A stretch of 42,596 bases of DNA from Pseudobutyrivibrio sp. (GTDB lineage: Bacteria; Bacillota; Clostridia; Lachnospirales; Lachnospiraceae). The DNA lies in NCBI RefSeq assembly GCF_017471675.1, contig NZ_JAFUSK010000040.1:1-42596 (forward strand), in the 5' to 3' direction. The position numbers were made by a program, and so were the translations under genes. This document shows positions 37,243 to 42,596 of the stretch, in pieces. Under the pieces are notes generated by a model. It was not told the DNA's origin and did not search any database. It worked only from the letters and a program-made list of their open reading frames with translations. How positions within the stretch are numbered: position 1 is the first letter of the stretch; the number at the start of each line of letters is the position of its first letter.

Positions 37243-38147
37243 ATGGATAAAGAAAAGACCGGAATGCTTATAAAGGAAGCCCGCATCAGCAAAGGCTACA
37301 CTCAGGCTGAATTAGCAGCTATTATAGGAGTATCAAACAAAGCTGTTTCGCATTGGGAAAACGGAGAAAGTTATCCTGATGTGGGACTATTAGAAAGTTT
37401 ATCATCATGCCTGGGGATTAGCATCGAGGAGCTTGTTGTTGGTGAACCTGCAGACAATGATGAATTCACTATGAAAGACTTCAAAAGACTGCTGCGTTCC
37501 AAGCGCAAGGAATCCATAAAAAAGATTATTCCTCTATTTGCTAATGCCATCATTATGATTATTATTCTAGGAAGATTCTATTTCGCATTTCTTTCATGCA
37601 AAGGATATTCTTGGAGTTACGCAAATGACATTGCGCTACTTATAGTTTGTTATTTAATTATGTTTTTCATTAATTATAGGGGGCAAAAATCTCAGATAAG
37701 CTTTCAAGGGAAATCGTCAACAGCTGGAACAATATTAGCATTATCTCTGCTATCACTTAGCATTATAATTATGTTTTTTTCGTTGGTATTTGTGACATTA
37801 TATTAGAGGTAATTCCTGCTGAATGTGTTGGGCCAATCCTTTCTTTTATCCTTGGGGTTATAGCTGTAATTAGTGCTGGTTTATTTGAATACATTTGGTT
37901 CATAGCCAAAAACAAATGTAATGAACTGGCATCATTTGTAAATATAGGCACTATTTTTCTATGCATTTCTTATAGAGAATGGCTTGGCAGTCTATTATCT
38001 ATTGAGGTTTCATTACACTCATTGTGGATAATAACGATTGTTATTGGTGTAATGATGATTACTTCATGGATAATATCTTCGCTTTTACGATTAAAGGAGA
38101 AACGTCGAGCGTTCAACGGGAATAGTGTGCGTGTTCGAAAACACTAG
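37243..38147 (+). pseudogene. XRE regulator with C-terminal membrane domain, frameshifted at a T7 run
   Basis: The first frame (37243-37806) starts with AGGAGG and an HTH: MLIKEARISKGYTQAELAAIIGVSNKAVSHWENGESYPDVGLLESL, then membrane segments, and stops just after a run of seven T (37774-37780). The next frame continues without a break to 38147, with LEVIPAECVGPILSFILGVI then AVISAGLFEYIWFIAKNK and a final membrane pair (LWIITIVIGVMMITSWII). One extra T restores a single protein of about 300 residues. It may be a sequencing error, phase variation or a true lesion. The 3' 79 bases recur at 41568-41646. Confidence 0.8.
38021..38099 (+). repeat. 79-bp direct repeat, left copy
   Basis: Sequence from ATTGTGGATAATAACG to ATTAAAGGAG, inside the C-terminal coding region of the XRE-membrane protein. 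It matches 41568-41646 at 77 of 79 positions in the same orientation. Confidence 0.9.
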
Positions 38148-38219
38148 TAAATAGGAGGTTTGTGGGACTGTCTTTTTATTTGTCCCCTTTTTGTCCCCCG
38201 TATATTTTCCATATTTGTC

Positions 38220-39161
38220 TTAGTATTTTCTATATTTGGTAATAGTTTCCCAATTACTAGGAAATCCCATTTCTTTTAAAATCATTGTTGCAATTTCTGC
38301 TTTTGATTCTCTCTGGTATCTTTTTATTAACTTGCTCAGACTATTTTTAAACTCTTTAAAATCAGAACTATCCAATAAATACTTAAAAGAAATAACAACA
38401 GAAAATAAATCTCGTTGCCCATATGTATATTCATTTCCATTTGCATTTAAAGGTATGCTTAATTTTTCATGCAACATCAATTTGGGACAAGCTTCTCTGG
38501 TTTTAAAAGTATATAAACGTTCTCCGTGTGCACATGAATTTCTACATATAGTTACTTCTCTTAGAACAGATGCAAGTGTACCTTCATTCAAGAAAGGATA
38601 CTCTTTTGAAATACAATATTTTATAGATTGTTTTTGAAGTTGATACATCTTGACAGTCTGACCAAATGTAACAGCATTTAGTAACACCCATAAAGGAACG
38701 TTATTATGATTAGCTTTTGCATGTTCAATATAATGATAGTTTCCCTTATCTATTATAGATGTAATAACTTTAATTAACGTATTTATATCTTGCCTATTTT
38801 TTAATGTATCATAGTCATAATTGTTAACATCTAAATAATCACACTGAGACTCAGAAAAATTCTCTGTGAACGCAGTGGCTAGGTGAACTTTTAATTGTTT
38901 TTCTACAATAATAGAATACTGTAAAAACAATCTTCTAAGCGCAGCATCAAATTCGTACAACTGAACTATTTCTTCGAACTTAGTCCCATCCTTATAGTTT
39001 TTCGTGGTTTTATTCTTAAAAGCATCTTTATATCCGCAAATTAATGAATAATATCCATACTTCTTTAAAACTGTTAAGGCATATTTCTCATCAGAAATCG
39101 TAAGACCTTTCGATTTCAACTTTTCAATTTGTTCATTGTAGTTTAGATAAGGTTTATCCAT
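38220..39161 (-). CDS. abiF: AbiF/AbiD-type abortive infection protein (Abi_2 family)
   Basis: 313 residues from the ATG at 39161, which has GGGAGA six bases upstream. A longer frame would run back through the small RNA and is rejected. The Abi_2 pattern is visible: DKPYLNYNEQIEKLKSKGL and DEKYALTVLKKYGYYSLICGYKDAF at the N-terminus, FDAALRRLFLQYSIIVEKQLK centrally, and the HEPN-like RNSCAHGERLY (RNSCAH at about 207-212) that marks an RNase active site. Such proteins limit phage growth by RNA cleavage. AbiF homologues are known to lie beside a structured RNA, as here. Confidence 0.85.
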   Translation of the reverse strand: MDKPYLNYNEQIEKLKSKGLTISDEKYALTVLKKYGYYSLICGYKDAFKNKTTKNYKDGTKFEEIVQLYEFDAALRRLFLQYSIIVEKQLKVHLATAFTENFSESQCDYLDVNNYDYDTLKNRQDINTLIKVITSIIDKGNYHYIEHAKANHNNVPLWVLLNAVTFGQTVKMYQLQKQSIKYCISKEYPFLNEGTLASVLREVTICRNSCAHGERLYTFKTREACPKLMLHEKLSIPLNANGNEYTYGQRDLFSVVISFKYLLDSSDFKEFKNSLSKLIKRYQRESKAEIATMILKEMGFPSNWETITKYRKY

Positions 39162-39179
39162 AAATACTCTCCCAAATAT

Positions 39180-39248
39180 AAAAAAAGGGAAGCTCCGCAG
39201 AGACTTCCCTGGGTCACAACTCACACAGAGATATGTGACGCATTCACT
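39180..39248 (-). ncRNA. AbiF-associated small RNA
   Basis: The predicted transcript starts at about 39248, set by the promoter just upstream, and ends in seven T directly before the abiF ribosome site. It has a stem GTCACA / TGTGAC (39213-39218, 39234-39239), then a terminator-like stem GGGAAG-CTC / GAG-CTTCCC with loop TGCG (39187-39209). It is about 69 bases long. This fits the abiF RNA motif described upstream of abiF genes, by recall. The hairpin also serves as a terminator or attenuator before the abiF gene. Confidence 0.75.
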
Positions 39249-39254
39249 GTAATC

Positions 39255-39283
39255 ATAATAGTCGCCACGCAACTATAAGTCAA
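39255..39283 (-). promoter_or_regulatory. promoter of the AbiF-associated RNA
   Basis: Minus strand TTGACT (-35, 39278-39283), 17 bases, TATTAT (-10, 39255-39260): close to consensus. Confidence 0.75.
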
Positions 39284-39434
39284 TACCTATCAGACTATAT
39301 TTGTGGTTAAAATATTAATAAAATAAGCAGTTATCATTACTCTTTATCTGGAATGTTCAAATTATGGGTGAAGATATTCCATTTGTACAGTATTAAAATT
39401 TAATACATTAATCTTATATCATAAGGATGAGTTT

Positions 39435-39521
39435 ATGCAAATAGCAGATGATGAATATCAGCATTTAAGAAGAATAAATCTAAGTTTTCCTATTCCTAGT
39501 ATTACCTTTCACGGCTTGTAG
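39435..39521 (+). CDS. short frame with ribosome site, probably a truncated remnant
   Basis: 28 codons, MQIADDEYQHLRRINLSFPI and on to a stop in the repeat at 39514-39558. AAGGATGAG precedes the ATG. It looks like the beginning of a gene cut off by the repeat. It could also be chance. The rest of the 39284-39656 spacer has the repeat and a terminator. Confidence 0.3.
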   Translation: MQIADDEYQHLRRINLSFPIPSITFHGL

Positions 39522-39558
39522 TTTTCTCCCCGCGTTGCTAAACTTTTCGACAAGAGAA
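39514..39558 (-). repeat. 45-bp repeat, copy 1
   Basis: Plus strand GCTTGTAGTTTTCTCCCCGC then GTTGCTAAACTTTT...CAAGAGAA. It matches 40735-40780. On the minus strand both copies could be read as a protein tail (KFSNA-RKLQAV-G), suggesting remnants of one duplicated 3' end. Confidence 0.75.
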
Positions 39559-40691: not shown

Positions 40692-40734
40692 ACATTAAAT
40701 CTCCTTATTTTCTTCTGCATTGACCCCATTCACT

Positions 40735-40780
40735 GCTTGTAGTTTTCTCCTCGCGTTGCTAAACTTTCTCTGCAAGAGAA
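40735..40780 (-). repeat. 45-bp repeat, copy 2
   Basis: Second copy of the 39514-39558 sequence, in the spacer between the SAP-domain gene and the GNAT gene. Its minus-strand reading LQRKFSNARRKLQAVNGVNA runs to a stop within the GNAT leader. Confidence 0.75.
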
Positions 40781-40801: not shown

Positions 40802-41371
40802 TCATTCAAGAGCTATAAGATCTGCTCTTTCATAGCGATTATGTCCTTGAATTTGCTTTTTATATTTCCAGCACTTGATTGCGTCCTCCAAAGACTTTCC
40901 TTGGTTATCCGCGAAAAAATCACGAATATAAATATTATACTCAAATTGACGATCAATCGTTTTTTTTCCCTTTTTCTTTTCTTCAAGAATTTGATAATAA
41001 GCTGCAATTGCGTCTCTATAGGTTTTACCAGTATTACTCTTTAGCCATTTTTGAAAAGCCACATTAAAAGAAAACGTAGTTCCTATATGTTCCTTAAAAA
41101 ATGCTCTGTGTTTCTCTGTGCAGACAAAATTGGGTTCGATTTTTGCATCCAAGTAAATATTGGATGTTGGAACTGTCATTTTCTTTTTTCTTGAAACAGA
41201 TACAATCTCACCCGTATCAAGGAATTGAGCAATCCGTTCTGTTATCTCAATTTTTCCACCAGATGTAGGTAGCCCATTTTCTCTGCAAAAATTTATCAAC
41301 TCTTCTTTCAAAAAGTAAAAATTGCGAAATGTTTGGCTATCCAAATTATTATCTAAAATAGGTCTTTCCAC
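40802..41371 (-). CDS. SAP-domain protein (DUF6434-like C-terminus)
   Basis: 189 residues, GTG start preceded by AGAGGG. Residues about 15-55 (LKEELINFCRENGLPTSGGKIEITERIAQFLDTGE) are a SAP helix-extension-helix, a putative DNA/RNA-binding domain. The C-terminal half (ICTEKHRAFFKEHIG-like, FSFNVAFQKWLKSNTGKTYRDAIAAYYQ) is of the type seen in DUF6434. The function is unknown; the chance of a DNA-binding role is good. It lies at the edge of the AbiF island. Confidence 0.8.
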   Translation of the reverse strand: MERPILDNNLDSQTFRNFYFLKEELINFCRENGLPTSGGKIEITERIAQFLDTGEIVSVSRKKKMTVPTSNIYLDAKIEPNFVCTEKHRAFFKEHIGTTFSFNVAFQKWLKSNTGKTYRDAIAAYYQILEEKKKGKKTIDRQFEYNIYIRDFFADNQGKSLEDAIKCWKYKKQIQGHNRYERADLIALE

Positions 41372-41567: not shown

Positions 41568-41646
41568 ATTGTGGATAATAACGATTGTTATTGGTGTAAT
41601 GATGATTACTTCATGGATAATATCTTCACTTTTACTATTAAAGGAG
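41568..41646 (+). repeat. 79-bp direct repeat, right copy
   Basis: Same orientation and 77 of 79 identical to 38021-38099. It is outside any complete gene here: upstream is a ribosome-site-like GGAGG (41554-41558) and downstream the frame stops within 10 codons. The remainder of 41372-41760 holds no gene I can support. Confidence 0.9.
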
Positions 41647-41768
41647 GCATCTTGCGTCCATACCACAAGGTTTTAAATGAATAAGTCAGATATATGGTTA
41701 TCTTGTAGGCATTTTATTTCTGGACGATTAAGATTAATACACAGAATGAGCGAATAGCAGATTTCTTG

Positions 41769-42132
41769 TTAAGTGAAAAAGGGAAAAGTAACTATTCCAC
41801 TTAAAAAGAGAGAATCGTGTTAAGTGAATATACGTAAATTTTATATCCACTTAAATCACATTAAATATTTTTAAGTATAGTTCAGTTTATTTTAAAACCT
41901 CTTATTTTCACTTAACAAGATTCATAAACTTGTTAAGTGAAAATTTGTTATAAAATAATAAACTTAACAAGTTCAAATATCATAACCAAAATGTTAAGTG
42001 ATTTTTTTCAATAACCAAATAAACTTAACCCCATTTTACATTCTTAAGTGAAAATATTTATTTTATTAATTCACTTAACTTTTAGTCAATTTCTAATTAA
42101 GTGAATTTTAGAAAACAAAAAATTTCACTTAA
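41769..42132. repeat. array of seven spaced palindromes, TTAAGTG...CACTTAA
   Basis: Seven units each begin TTAAGTG and end CACTTAA (or one-base variants): 41769-41804, 41820-41854, 41871-41915, 41933-41967, 41993-42028, 42044-42078, 42097-42132. Six are 35 or 36 bases and one is 45. Starts are 51, 51, 62, 60, 51 and 53 bases apart, near five or six helical turns. Eleven of 14 half-sites keep TTAAGTG; several extend to CTTGTTAAGTGAAAA. Interiors are A/T-rich and unrelated. It is not a CRISPR array (no conserved repeat unit with unique spacers). Confidence 0.9.
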
Positions 42133-42146
42133 CTGCTGTAGAATAG

Positions 42147-42400
42147 GTTTGTTTTCAGCACCAAAACAAACGAAGCAGGAACAGAAACCGAGCCGGCAGG
42201 CGAGACCTCGAACCTTCGAGACCCGTATGGGCCTACGCGCGAGACGAAATTAAGGAAACATCACGATTTCTCATCGCAAGCTCGATAAATCAAACGGGAA
42301 GACGCAGCATTATATGTGCTTCGCACGGCCGCGTCGTGGCAAACAGGTTCCTCCCACTAAAGTGGATCCCTCCTATATGCATTTCGTCCCGCCTCGATTA
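42147..42400. other. GC-rich hairpin-dense segment without a gene
   Basis: After the AT-rich array the sequence changes sharply to GC-rich and carries stems GTTTGTTTT / AAAACAAAC (42147-42171), CTCGAA / TTCGAG (42207-42220), CCC / GGG (42222-42231), GACGC / GCGTC around GTGCTTCGCAC (42301-42335), and CCACT / AGTGG (42354-42365). No tmRNA, RNase P, SRP or rRNA signature is seen on either strand. It may be a structured RNA or the end of an element at the tRNA gene. Confidence 0.5.
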
Positions 42401-42416
42401 AAGTGCTCTTTTAATA

Positions 42417-42450
42417 CAAAAAATGAGGCCATCCAAATGGATGACCTCAT
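42417..42450 (-). terminator. terminator after tRNA-Gly
   Basis: Stem ATGAGGtCATCC / GGATGgCCTCAT (42423-42450) followed on the minus strand by TTTTTT. It lies inside a longer palindrome that includes GCTCTTTTAATAC / GTATTAAAAGAGC (42401-42470). Confidence 0.85.
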
Positions 42451-42465
42451 TTTCTGTATTAAAAG

Positions 42466-42538
42466 AGCGCGAGACGGGACTCGAACCCGCGACCCCCACC
42501 TTGGCAAGGTGGTGCTCCACCAACTGAGCCACTCGCGC
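42466..42538 (-). tRNA. tRNA-Gly (anticodon GCC)
   Basis: Acceptor stem GCGCGAG / CTCGCGC (42532-42538, 42467-42473), D-loop region GGCTCAGTTGGTGGAGC, anticodon arm CCACCTTGCCAAGGTGG with anticodon GCC, and T arm GCGGGTTCGAGTCCCGT. CCA is not encoded. Just upstream a strong palindrome (TTCGTG...CACGAA, 42542-42580) covers the tRNA leader. Confidence 0.97.
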
Positions 42539-42596
42539 TTATTCGTGTATTTTTCGAGCTTCGCGAAGAAAAATCACGAAGTTGAGAAAATGCAAA

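Follow-up and report, generated by a model that had tools for sequence, protein, structure and literature searches.

Plasmid partition centromeres of the iteron and heptad types are phased arrays of short sites for DNA-binding proteins, and REP units are conserved throughout. BIME clusters consist of regularly spaced, alternating palindromes between genes (PMC2817692). REP sequences carry a GTAG or CGTC tag (title of PMC3733652). In REPIN-RAYT systems, as described in PMC3116915, distinct single-copy enzyme genes have palindromes beside each of them and scattered elsewhere, and some genomes hold several such pairs.

We analysed a window of 42,596 nucleotides (the whole stretch of DNA under study) from a Pseudobutyrivibrio genome, which contains an array of seven palindromes. 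Arrays of this kind look like the repeat component of an undescribed enzyme-and-repeat partnership, tied to a family of small nucleases in which each member has its own site. They resemble REPIN-RAYT systems in that cognate palindromes are found both beside an enzyme gene and dispersed between genes. They differ in the enzyme, which is PD-(D/E)xK-like with RSKSE, PDF and EHxG motifs and not a Y1 (HUH) tyrosine transposase (Pfam and NCBIfam scans of the array-linked family returned no Y1 transposase family), and in conservation, which is confined to half-sites of 7-9 bp with a largely free interior. They also differ in layout, with 3-17 units in helical phase, and in number, since each class occupies about 3-13 array places in those genomes where we counted them. 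The logo of the arrays with half-site TTAAGTG...CACTTAA (class A) lacks the GTAG tag of REP sequences, and their whole sequence is not conserved. With another enzyme superfamily, a free interior and many units laid out in phase, the arrays are not members of the REPIN-RAYT group. With BIMEs they share regular palindromes, alternating orientation and an intergenic position, but here the half-sites alone are conserved and the spacing falls in whole helical turns. Partition centromeres are likewise phased arrays of short sites; the arrays described here, in contrast, are dispersed over the chromosome, their partner is a nuclease family, and no ParA-like gene was found among the 20 proteins scanned with Pfam from the window and other array loci. 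Unlike CRISPR arrays, they conserve about 7 bp rather than identical repeats, and their spacers vary by point changes between orthologues; Pfam detected no cas genes among 10 window genes, including the three nearest the array. Searches of open-licence PMC returned no literature on such arrays or on the nuclease family, and it is these searches, together with the Pfam, NCBIfam and PADLOC scans, that make both appear novel.

The window array lies at the end of its contig (C10 ends where the window ends). The sequence-only reading had described 14 half-sites in strictly alternating orientation, and mapping reproduced this arrangement, with 11 of the 14 exact matches to TTAAGTG or CACTTAA. Start-to-start spacings are 51, 61, 52, 61, 50 and 53 bp, which agrees with the 51-53 or 60-62 bp given earlier for all steps except the one of 50. 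The unit length of 35-36 bp, previously assigned to six of the seven palindromes, fits all seven.

Table 1. Positions of the class A array and its units in the window.
Feature	Position	Strand	Basis
Complete class A array (seven units over 364 bp)	41769..42132	.	Half-site mapping and homology boundaries (41768-42132 against the C65 array; 41762-42142 against two other-species arrays)
Unit 1, TTAAGTG-N22-CACTTAA	41769..41804	.	Left and right half-sites exact
Unit 2, TTAAGTG-N21-CACTTAA	41820..41854	.	Left and right half-sites exact
Unit 3	41881..41915	.	Right half-site exact; left half-site (41881) with two mismatches
Unit 4	41933..41967	.	Left half-site exact; right half-site (41961) with one mismatch
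Unit 5	41994..42028	.	Left half-site exact; right half-site (42022) with one mismatch
Unit 6	42044..42078	.	Left and right half-sites exact
Unit 7	42097..42132	.	Left and right half-sites exact

The window contains four exact units. When its full length was shuffled 500 times with dinucleotides preserved, the mean was 0.002 and no shuffle gave more than 1; 2000 shuffles of the array region alone produced none. A motif-free scan that accepted any 7-mer recovered seven units at the array, compared with at most two in 300 shuffles, and elsewhere in the window three units were never reached within 900 bp. Chance and AT-rich composition are thereby ruled out as the origin of the array, and the earlier description of a helically phased, protein-site-like array rather than AT-rich noise is borne out. 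Two outcomes had been named as fatal to it: equally regular arrays in shuffled sequence, and an absence of clustered copies from related genomes. The shuffles gave nothing comparable, and clustered copies were found in the same genome and across the genus; thus, the array observation survives.

The window's own genome contains 24 exact class A units in six clusters, on contigs C7, C10, C27, C51, C65 and C88, compared with two matches to the reversed pattern. When the genome collection was scanned for a unit and a half, 45 stretches matched; eight named Pseudobutyrivibrio genomes accounted for 37, the other eight being single stretches from other groups; the array pattern was absent from the viral collection (viral_contigs). 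A class A unit is present in 11 of the 29 genus genomes and in 18 of 397 sampled family genomes, once each except in the window's own genome (24) and in G271 (4), where the units sit in a near-identical GC-rich repeat. G271 belongs to another genus, and around position 1944083 of its contig C1, palindromes of 34 bp with TTAAGTG ends recur every 48 bp in near-identical form.

We mapped 52 distinct class A arrays, counting orthologues apart. A seven-unit layout with spacings of 50-61-52-61-50-53, or its mirror image, was seen in 23 of them. Another 11 have this layout with a central unit shifted or the array shortened by about one helical turn, seven have it with one unit added or some units missing, and 11 fit no version of it. 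In the class A logo, information drops beyond TTAAGTG and its A/T flanks. The interiors, earlier called unrelated, are so within the window array, but this description fails against the C65 array of the same genome, to which the window array aligns in register with 74% identity over ~365 bp; some arrays of other species reach 70-72%. Homology between the most similar arrays stops at the outermost half-sites or within ~10 bp of them. Outside the half-sites, identity between the window and C65 arrays is 0.68, against a spacer-shuffled null of 0.53 ± 0.03. Clear homology outside the half-sites (0.64-0.68) was found in five of 26 comparisons with the window array, and the remainder gave 0.53-0.62, close to the antiparallel control (0.55-0.60). 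These five represent two loci, namely C65 with its orthologue in AD2017, and one place shared by OR37, AD2017 and RUG12053. Judged by these alignments, some of the dispersed arrays descend as copies from one element and have since diverged, a claim that we limit to some and do not extend to most. The window and C65 share a tRNA-Gly and further near-identical pieces, so a segmental duplication is possible for that pair; the second homologous locus has no tRNA in 8 kb.

Arrays away from nuclease genes exist for three half-site classes. Class B arrays, with half-sites TTACCACT...AGTGGTAA and units mostly of 39 bp repeated mostly every 52 bp, are found in 16 of the 29 genus genomes. Class C arrays (TGCATCC...GGATGCA) are found in 20 of 29, the reversed control giving 0, and repeat the pattern of a gene with its array plus dispersed arrays. 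Comparison between species indicates that the arrays have inserted into intergenic positions. Two ABC-2 transporter genes that lie next to each other in array-less species have the C88 array between them, and the gene downstream of this array was found in 27 of 29 genomes. Among 21 loci viewed at this ABC-2 junction, class A arrays are present in G000, G409, G418 and G400, and also in G402, and the genes abut in several others; G413 has a different array at the same place, with half-site TTACCACT and 17 units at 51-53 bp. The purN-purD junction of the purine operon is also polymorphic among species. Of the 29 genomes, nine have class B half-sites there (three of them read directly from the sequence, purD being outside the locus), 14 have none and six could not be parsed by the script. 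The purN-purD gap in the 14 genomes without class B measures 2-212 bp, the shortest being 2, 4, 14 and 16 bp. Class B arrays at this junction contain one unit in G400 and 6-14 units in the others, and a GGAGGA stretch remains next to purD in the junction sequences viewed. Incidental inspection revealed no target-site duplications.

The nuclease family was reached through class B arrays, which lie directly upstream of a gene for a 272-aa protein. A search of the genus with this protein returned 1-11 relatives in 28 of 29 genomes. The member beside the class A array of C51 is a gene of ~280 aa (L013:8224-9075) with the array directly upstream, 30 bp from its first possible start and farther if a later start is used. 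To assess how general the pairing is, we assembled 102 family genes: 70 from the genus by protein homology (30 loci from the search and 40 taken by position among the matches listed), three class A nucleases found via arrays, and 29 from other genera. The 900 bp upstream were scanned with no motif named, an array being defined as at least three units within 900 bp. Arrays were found near 72 of the 102 genes, 66 upstream and six downstream only, comprising 55 of 73 genus genes and 17 of 29 genes from other genera. Without the three array-selected genes the count is 69 of 99, and without the class A and class B clades, the route by which the family was found, it is 54 of 82. Many family genes have a palindrome array of their own with a differing half-site. 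The same scan detected no array at 30 of the 102 genes; among the 12 of these from other genera, five have less than 225 bp of upstream sequence and seven have 900 bp. In the control, nine of 164 non-nuclease genes reached three units. Each of the nine lies at an array of class A or class B, and the control loci had nearly all been picked for such arrays.

Class A arrays and class A nucleases co-occur across the 29 genomes: nine genomes have both an array and a close class A nuclease, two an array only, one a nuclease only and 17 neither (hypergeometric p about 5e-5, calculated by hand), where a close nuclease was defined by identity of at least 47% (next best 41%), a cut-off set after the list was seen, and some genomes are incomplete. 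The array-only genomes, G404 and G411, have class A palindromes without a close class A nuclease. In the nuclease-only genome, G413, the array has mainly the half-site TTAAGTT in place of TTAAGTG. In G398, the class A nuclease orthologue (C14:134791-135627) contains an internal stop, and the genome retains 14 class A palindromes.

The motifs RSKSE, PDF and E-H-x-G are invariant in all 40 members of an alignment of the family (A1). No Pfam or NCBIfam model covers it, the best matches to single members being 5e-4 (Pfam) and 5e-3 (NCBIfam), each in one of the 40. T7 endonuclease I gave a weak profile match (E 0.035). An AlphaFold model built from a 13-row alignment has pLDDT of about 90 over most of residues 150-264 and below 50 for residues 37-46 and 56-69; a single-sequence structure model was poor (pLDDT 39). 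The best fold match is to the R2 restriction-like endonuclease (E 0.023, probability 0.98), followed by restriction enzymes, none with E below 0.02. On the modelled fold and the core motif, the C-terminal domain is PD-(D/E)xK-like, and it resembles known nucleases of this type (PDC-S68, T7 endonuclease I and the R2 endonuclease) through matches that are weak but consistent. The array-linked family differs from these in that no Pfam or NCBIfam model covers it and its nine viral relatives match residues 151-264 only. The N-terminal ~145 residues, unmatched in those relatives, are a candidate half-site binding region.

Of 120 Lachnospiraceae genomes sampled, 43 contain family matches (E 1e-10), the window's own among them, a few of these matches being fragments or ends of ~1100-1240-aa frames. 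At L239-L247 and in G035, G079 and G088, the same C-terminal nuclease domain forms the end of long proteins of the candidate PDC-S68 type, with frames of ~1100-1240 aa in the genomes and comparable ones in viral contigs. Plasmid records contain no full-length relative of the query protein P0001. A relative with 30% identity over 86% of the query lies on a 4.2-kb unannotated 'Bacteriophage sp.' scaffold with no clear array. On these searches of the viral collection and of plasmid records, we reject a phage or plasmid element.

Half-sites differ by clade of the nuclease family. Across the 72 arrays, the similarity of half-sites is correlated with the identity of the proteins (Pearson 0.525, none of 999 permutations as high; Spearman only 0.128), with values of 0.53 for the N-terminal and 0.448 for the C-terminal part of the protein. 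Median motif similarity is 0.98 above 80% protein identity, 0.79 at 60-80% and 0.56 at 50-60%, and below 50% it lies at background (0.27-0.29). Orthologues inherit gene and array jointly, so part of this correlation reflects vertical inheritance and is not proof of co-evolution. Modal unit spacings of the 32 motif clusters fall at 52-54, 61-65, 72-75 and 86 bp, with one at 45. When periods of 8-14 bp were scanned across these clusters, the best was 10.8 bp (R 0.82), and none of 2000 spacing sets jittered by up to 5 bp scored as high within 10-11 bp. Spacing is thus quantised in helical turns, which favours binding on double-stranded DNA.

On balance, and with modest confidence, we read the window array as a non-autonomous dispersed copy of the binding array of the C51-encoded nuclease, in a relationship resembling that of REPINs and RAYTs. 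No family match lies on contig C10 among the matches listed for this genome, so on this reading the window array would be served in trans by the C51 gene. The N-terminal part of the nuclease would bind the 7-9 bp half-sites, two of which, about 28 bp apart, make one unit. Units about 5, 6 or 7 helical turns apart would then align nuclease oligomers in phase along the DNA. The PD-(D/E)xK domain may nick or cut in or near the arrays, and cut-and-copy repair may spread them or alter their unit number, as REPINs are served by RAYTs. In most clades of the family, the gene is accompanied by an array with a half-site particular to that clade. We observed that genes and arrays are paired, that this pairing is general and that protein and half-site are correlated, along with phasing, half-site constraint, dispersal, whole-element homology among a few dispersed arrays, and the differences in insertion and unit number; to these observations we add putative binding, cutting and movement of the arrays. 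More broadly, these may constitute an undescribed class of elements, in which sequence-specific Lachnospiraceae nucleases bind phased palindrome arrays and copy them between genes, the half-site being re-specified as paralogues diverge; we hold this more tentatively, at a little short of an even chance. Should the pairing prove functional, partnerships of the REPIN-RAYT kind would have evolved a second time, in an enzyme class unrelated to the first. The 32 motif clusters would then amount to about thirty naturally occurring pairs of enzyme and site, from whose sequences a protein-DNA recognition code could be read, and the arrays would be a new agent of intergenic change in common gut and rumen bacteria, even inside core operons such as that for purines.

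An unlikely alternative, although the best placed of those considered, is that these are mainly DNA-binding proteins that regulate themselves from the adjacent array, with the dispersed arrays insulating or organising the chromosome, perhaps in a centromere-like manner, and the nuclease fold retained for structural reasons or for repair. Among the 52 genus genes that have an array upstream, 43 follow the end of that array by 1-94 bp, which is the position of an operator, and the dispersed arrays occupy intergenic gaps with a fixed, phased geometry. Constraint on the half-sites points the same way: their conservation exceeds that of the remaining array sequence in five of six non-independent comparisons among five orthologous nuclease-side sequences (for example, 82/84 against 166/230 elsewhere, p 4e-8), the comparison of L251 with L253 not being significant (83/98 against 207/266, p 0.19). 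In G399, moreover, two duplicated class A arrays flank a gene of 193 aa (L126 7232-7813) that matches MreB below threshold (E 1e-5; 25.0 bits, with the cut-off at 27). Against a regulatory role, the RSKSE, PDF and EHxG motifs show no exception in the alignment, many species have no arrays at the ABC-2 and purN-purD junctions, and the dispersed arrays have no common orientation. Nor do the neighbours of class A arrays share a gene family, except at orthologous positions, which rules out a gene-specific operator.

A role in defence, with the nuclease as an anti-invader effector and chromosomal arrays that mark self or keep the enzyme bound and inactive, is more doubtful still. PADLOC models for the candidate defence system PDC-S68 match all 40 aligned members (best 1.6e-31), HEAT_CxxC_PDDEXK matches 32 of the 40, and several diverse paralogues occur per genome. 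However, the models matched are themselves candidates, and in the member shown the PDC-S68 match is limited to the last ~120 residues of ~1200-aa models.

CRISPR-like guiding of a nuclease by an array has a point of comparison in TIGR systems. A CRISPR-like or TIGR-like array, in which transcribed hairpins or spacers guide the nuclease, would account for constant palindromes with variable interiors beside nuclease genes and for folding better than shuffles (z -7.8 and -7.1 for the two strands), as expected of any palindrome set, but it is very improbable here, since RNA does not need the helical-turn spacing of the 32 motif clusters or the one-turn unit shifts and shortening of 11 of the 52 class A arrays, orthologous interiors differ by point changes, and the Rfam scan placed nothing on the array above the gathering score, the tRNA alone being significant.

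The sequence flanking the window array was also compared with other array loci. The sequence-only reading had raised a tie between the cluster and tRNA-Gly, which does not hold in general: in a scan of 40 array loci (8 shorter ones lay outside it), tRNA-Gly is present in three, tRNA-Pro in one and no tRNA in 36. The three tRNA-Gly loci are the window, C65, where the tRNA gene is 5.6 kb from the array, and the orthologue of C65 in AD2017, where the distance is about 750 bp. As these are the locus of the window array and those of the arrays most closely related to it, a local link is possible in the three cases. The segment at 42171-42596 is GC-rich and includes the tRNA-Gly region and a 31-bp inverted repeat (42405-42468); pieces of it recur in the genus, and some match to the queried stretch was found in 29 of 29 genomes.

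On the other side of the array, two copies of a 79-bp direct repeat (38021-38099 and 41568-41646) are 97% identical. This is probably the repeat that had been placed beside a decayed XRE-membrane gene in the sequence-only reading, and it also occurs on contig C248 of G409. The clear gene nearest the array (40802-41371, minus strand) encodes SAP_new25 and DUF6434 domains and has no homologue in seven other array loci (best chance match E 0.64). No integrase was found among the few array neighbours scanned with Pfam. At a Vallitaleaceae locus (L073 5275-5337), a gene that looks XRE-like by eye is preceded by repeats in which half-sites of class A and class B are joined; an operator of an XRE repressor was rejected as an explanation, as nothing connects this locus to the arrays.

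Several family genes (for example on G073:C17, G009:C103 and G078:C21) start no more than a few hundred bases from contig ends, as if arrays break assemblies; a functional pairing may also account for the apparent breaks of some assemblies at these genes. Farther from the window array, a 42-bp direct repeat (39505-39546 and 40726-40767, 93% identical) flanks two small genes. An Abi_2-like gene, a candidate abortive-infection gene, lies at 38220-39272 on the minus strand. Two segments near it (38185-38377 and 39163-39343) recur at ~96% identity in C65 (L014 2430-2798), where the copies lie between the tRNA-Gly and the array, in a ~5-kb stretch that is absent from the AD2017 orthologue. The window and C65 may thus share a mobile segment at tRNA-Gly.
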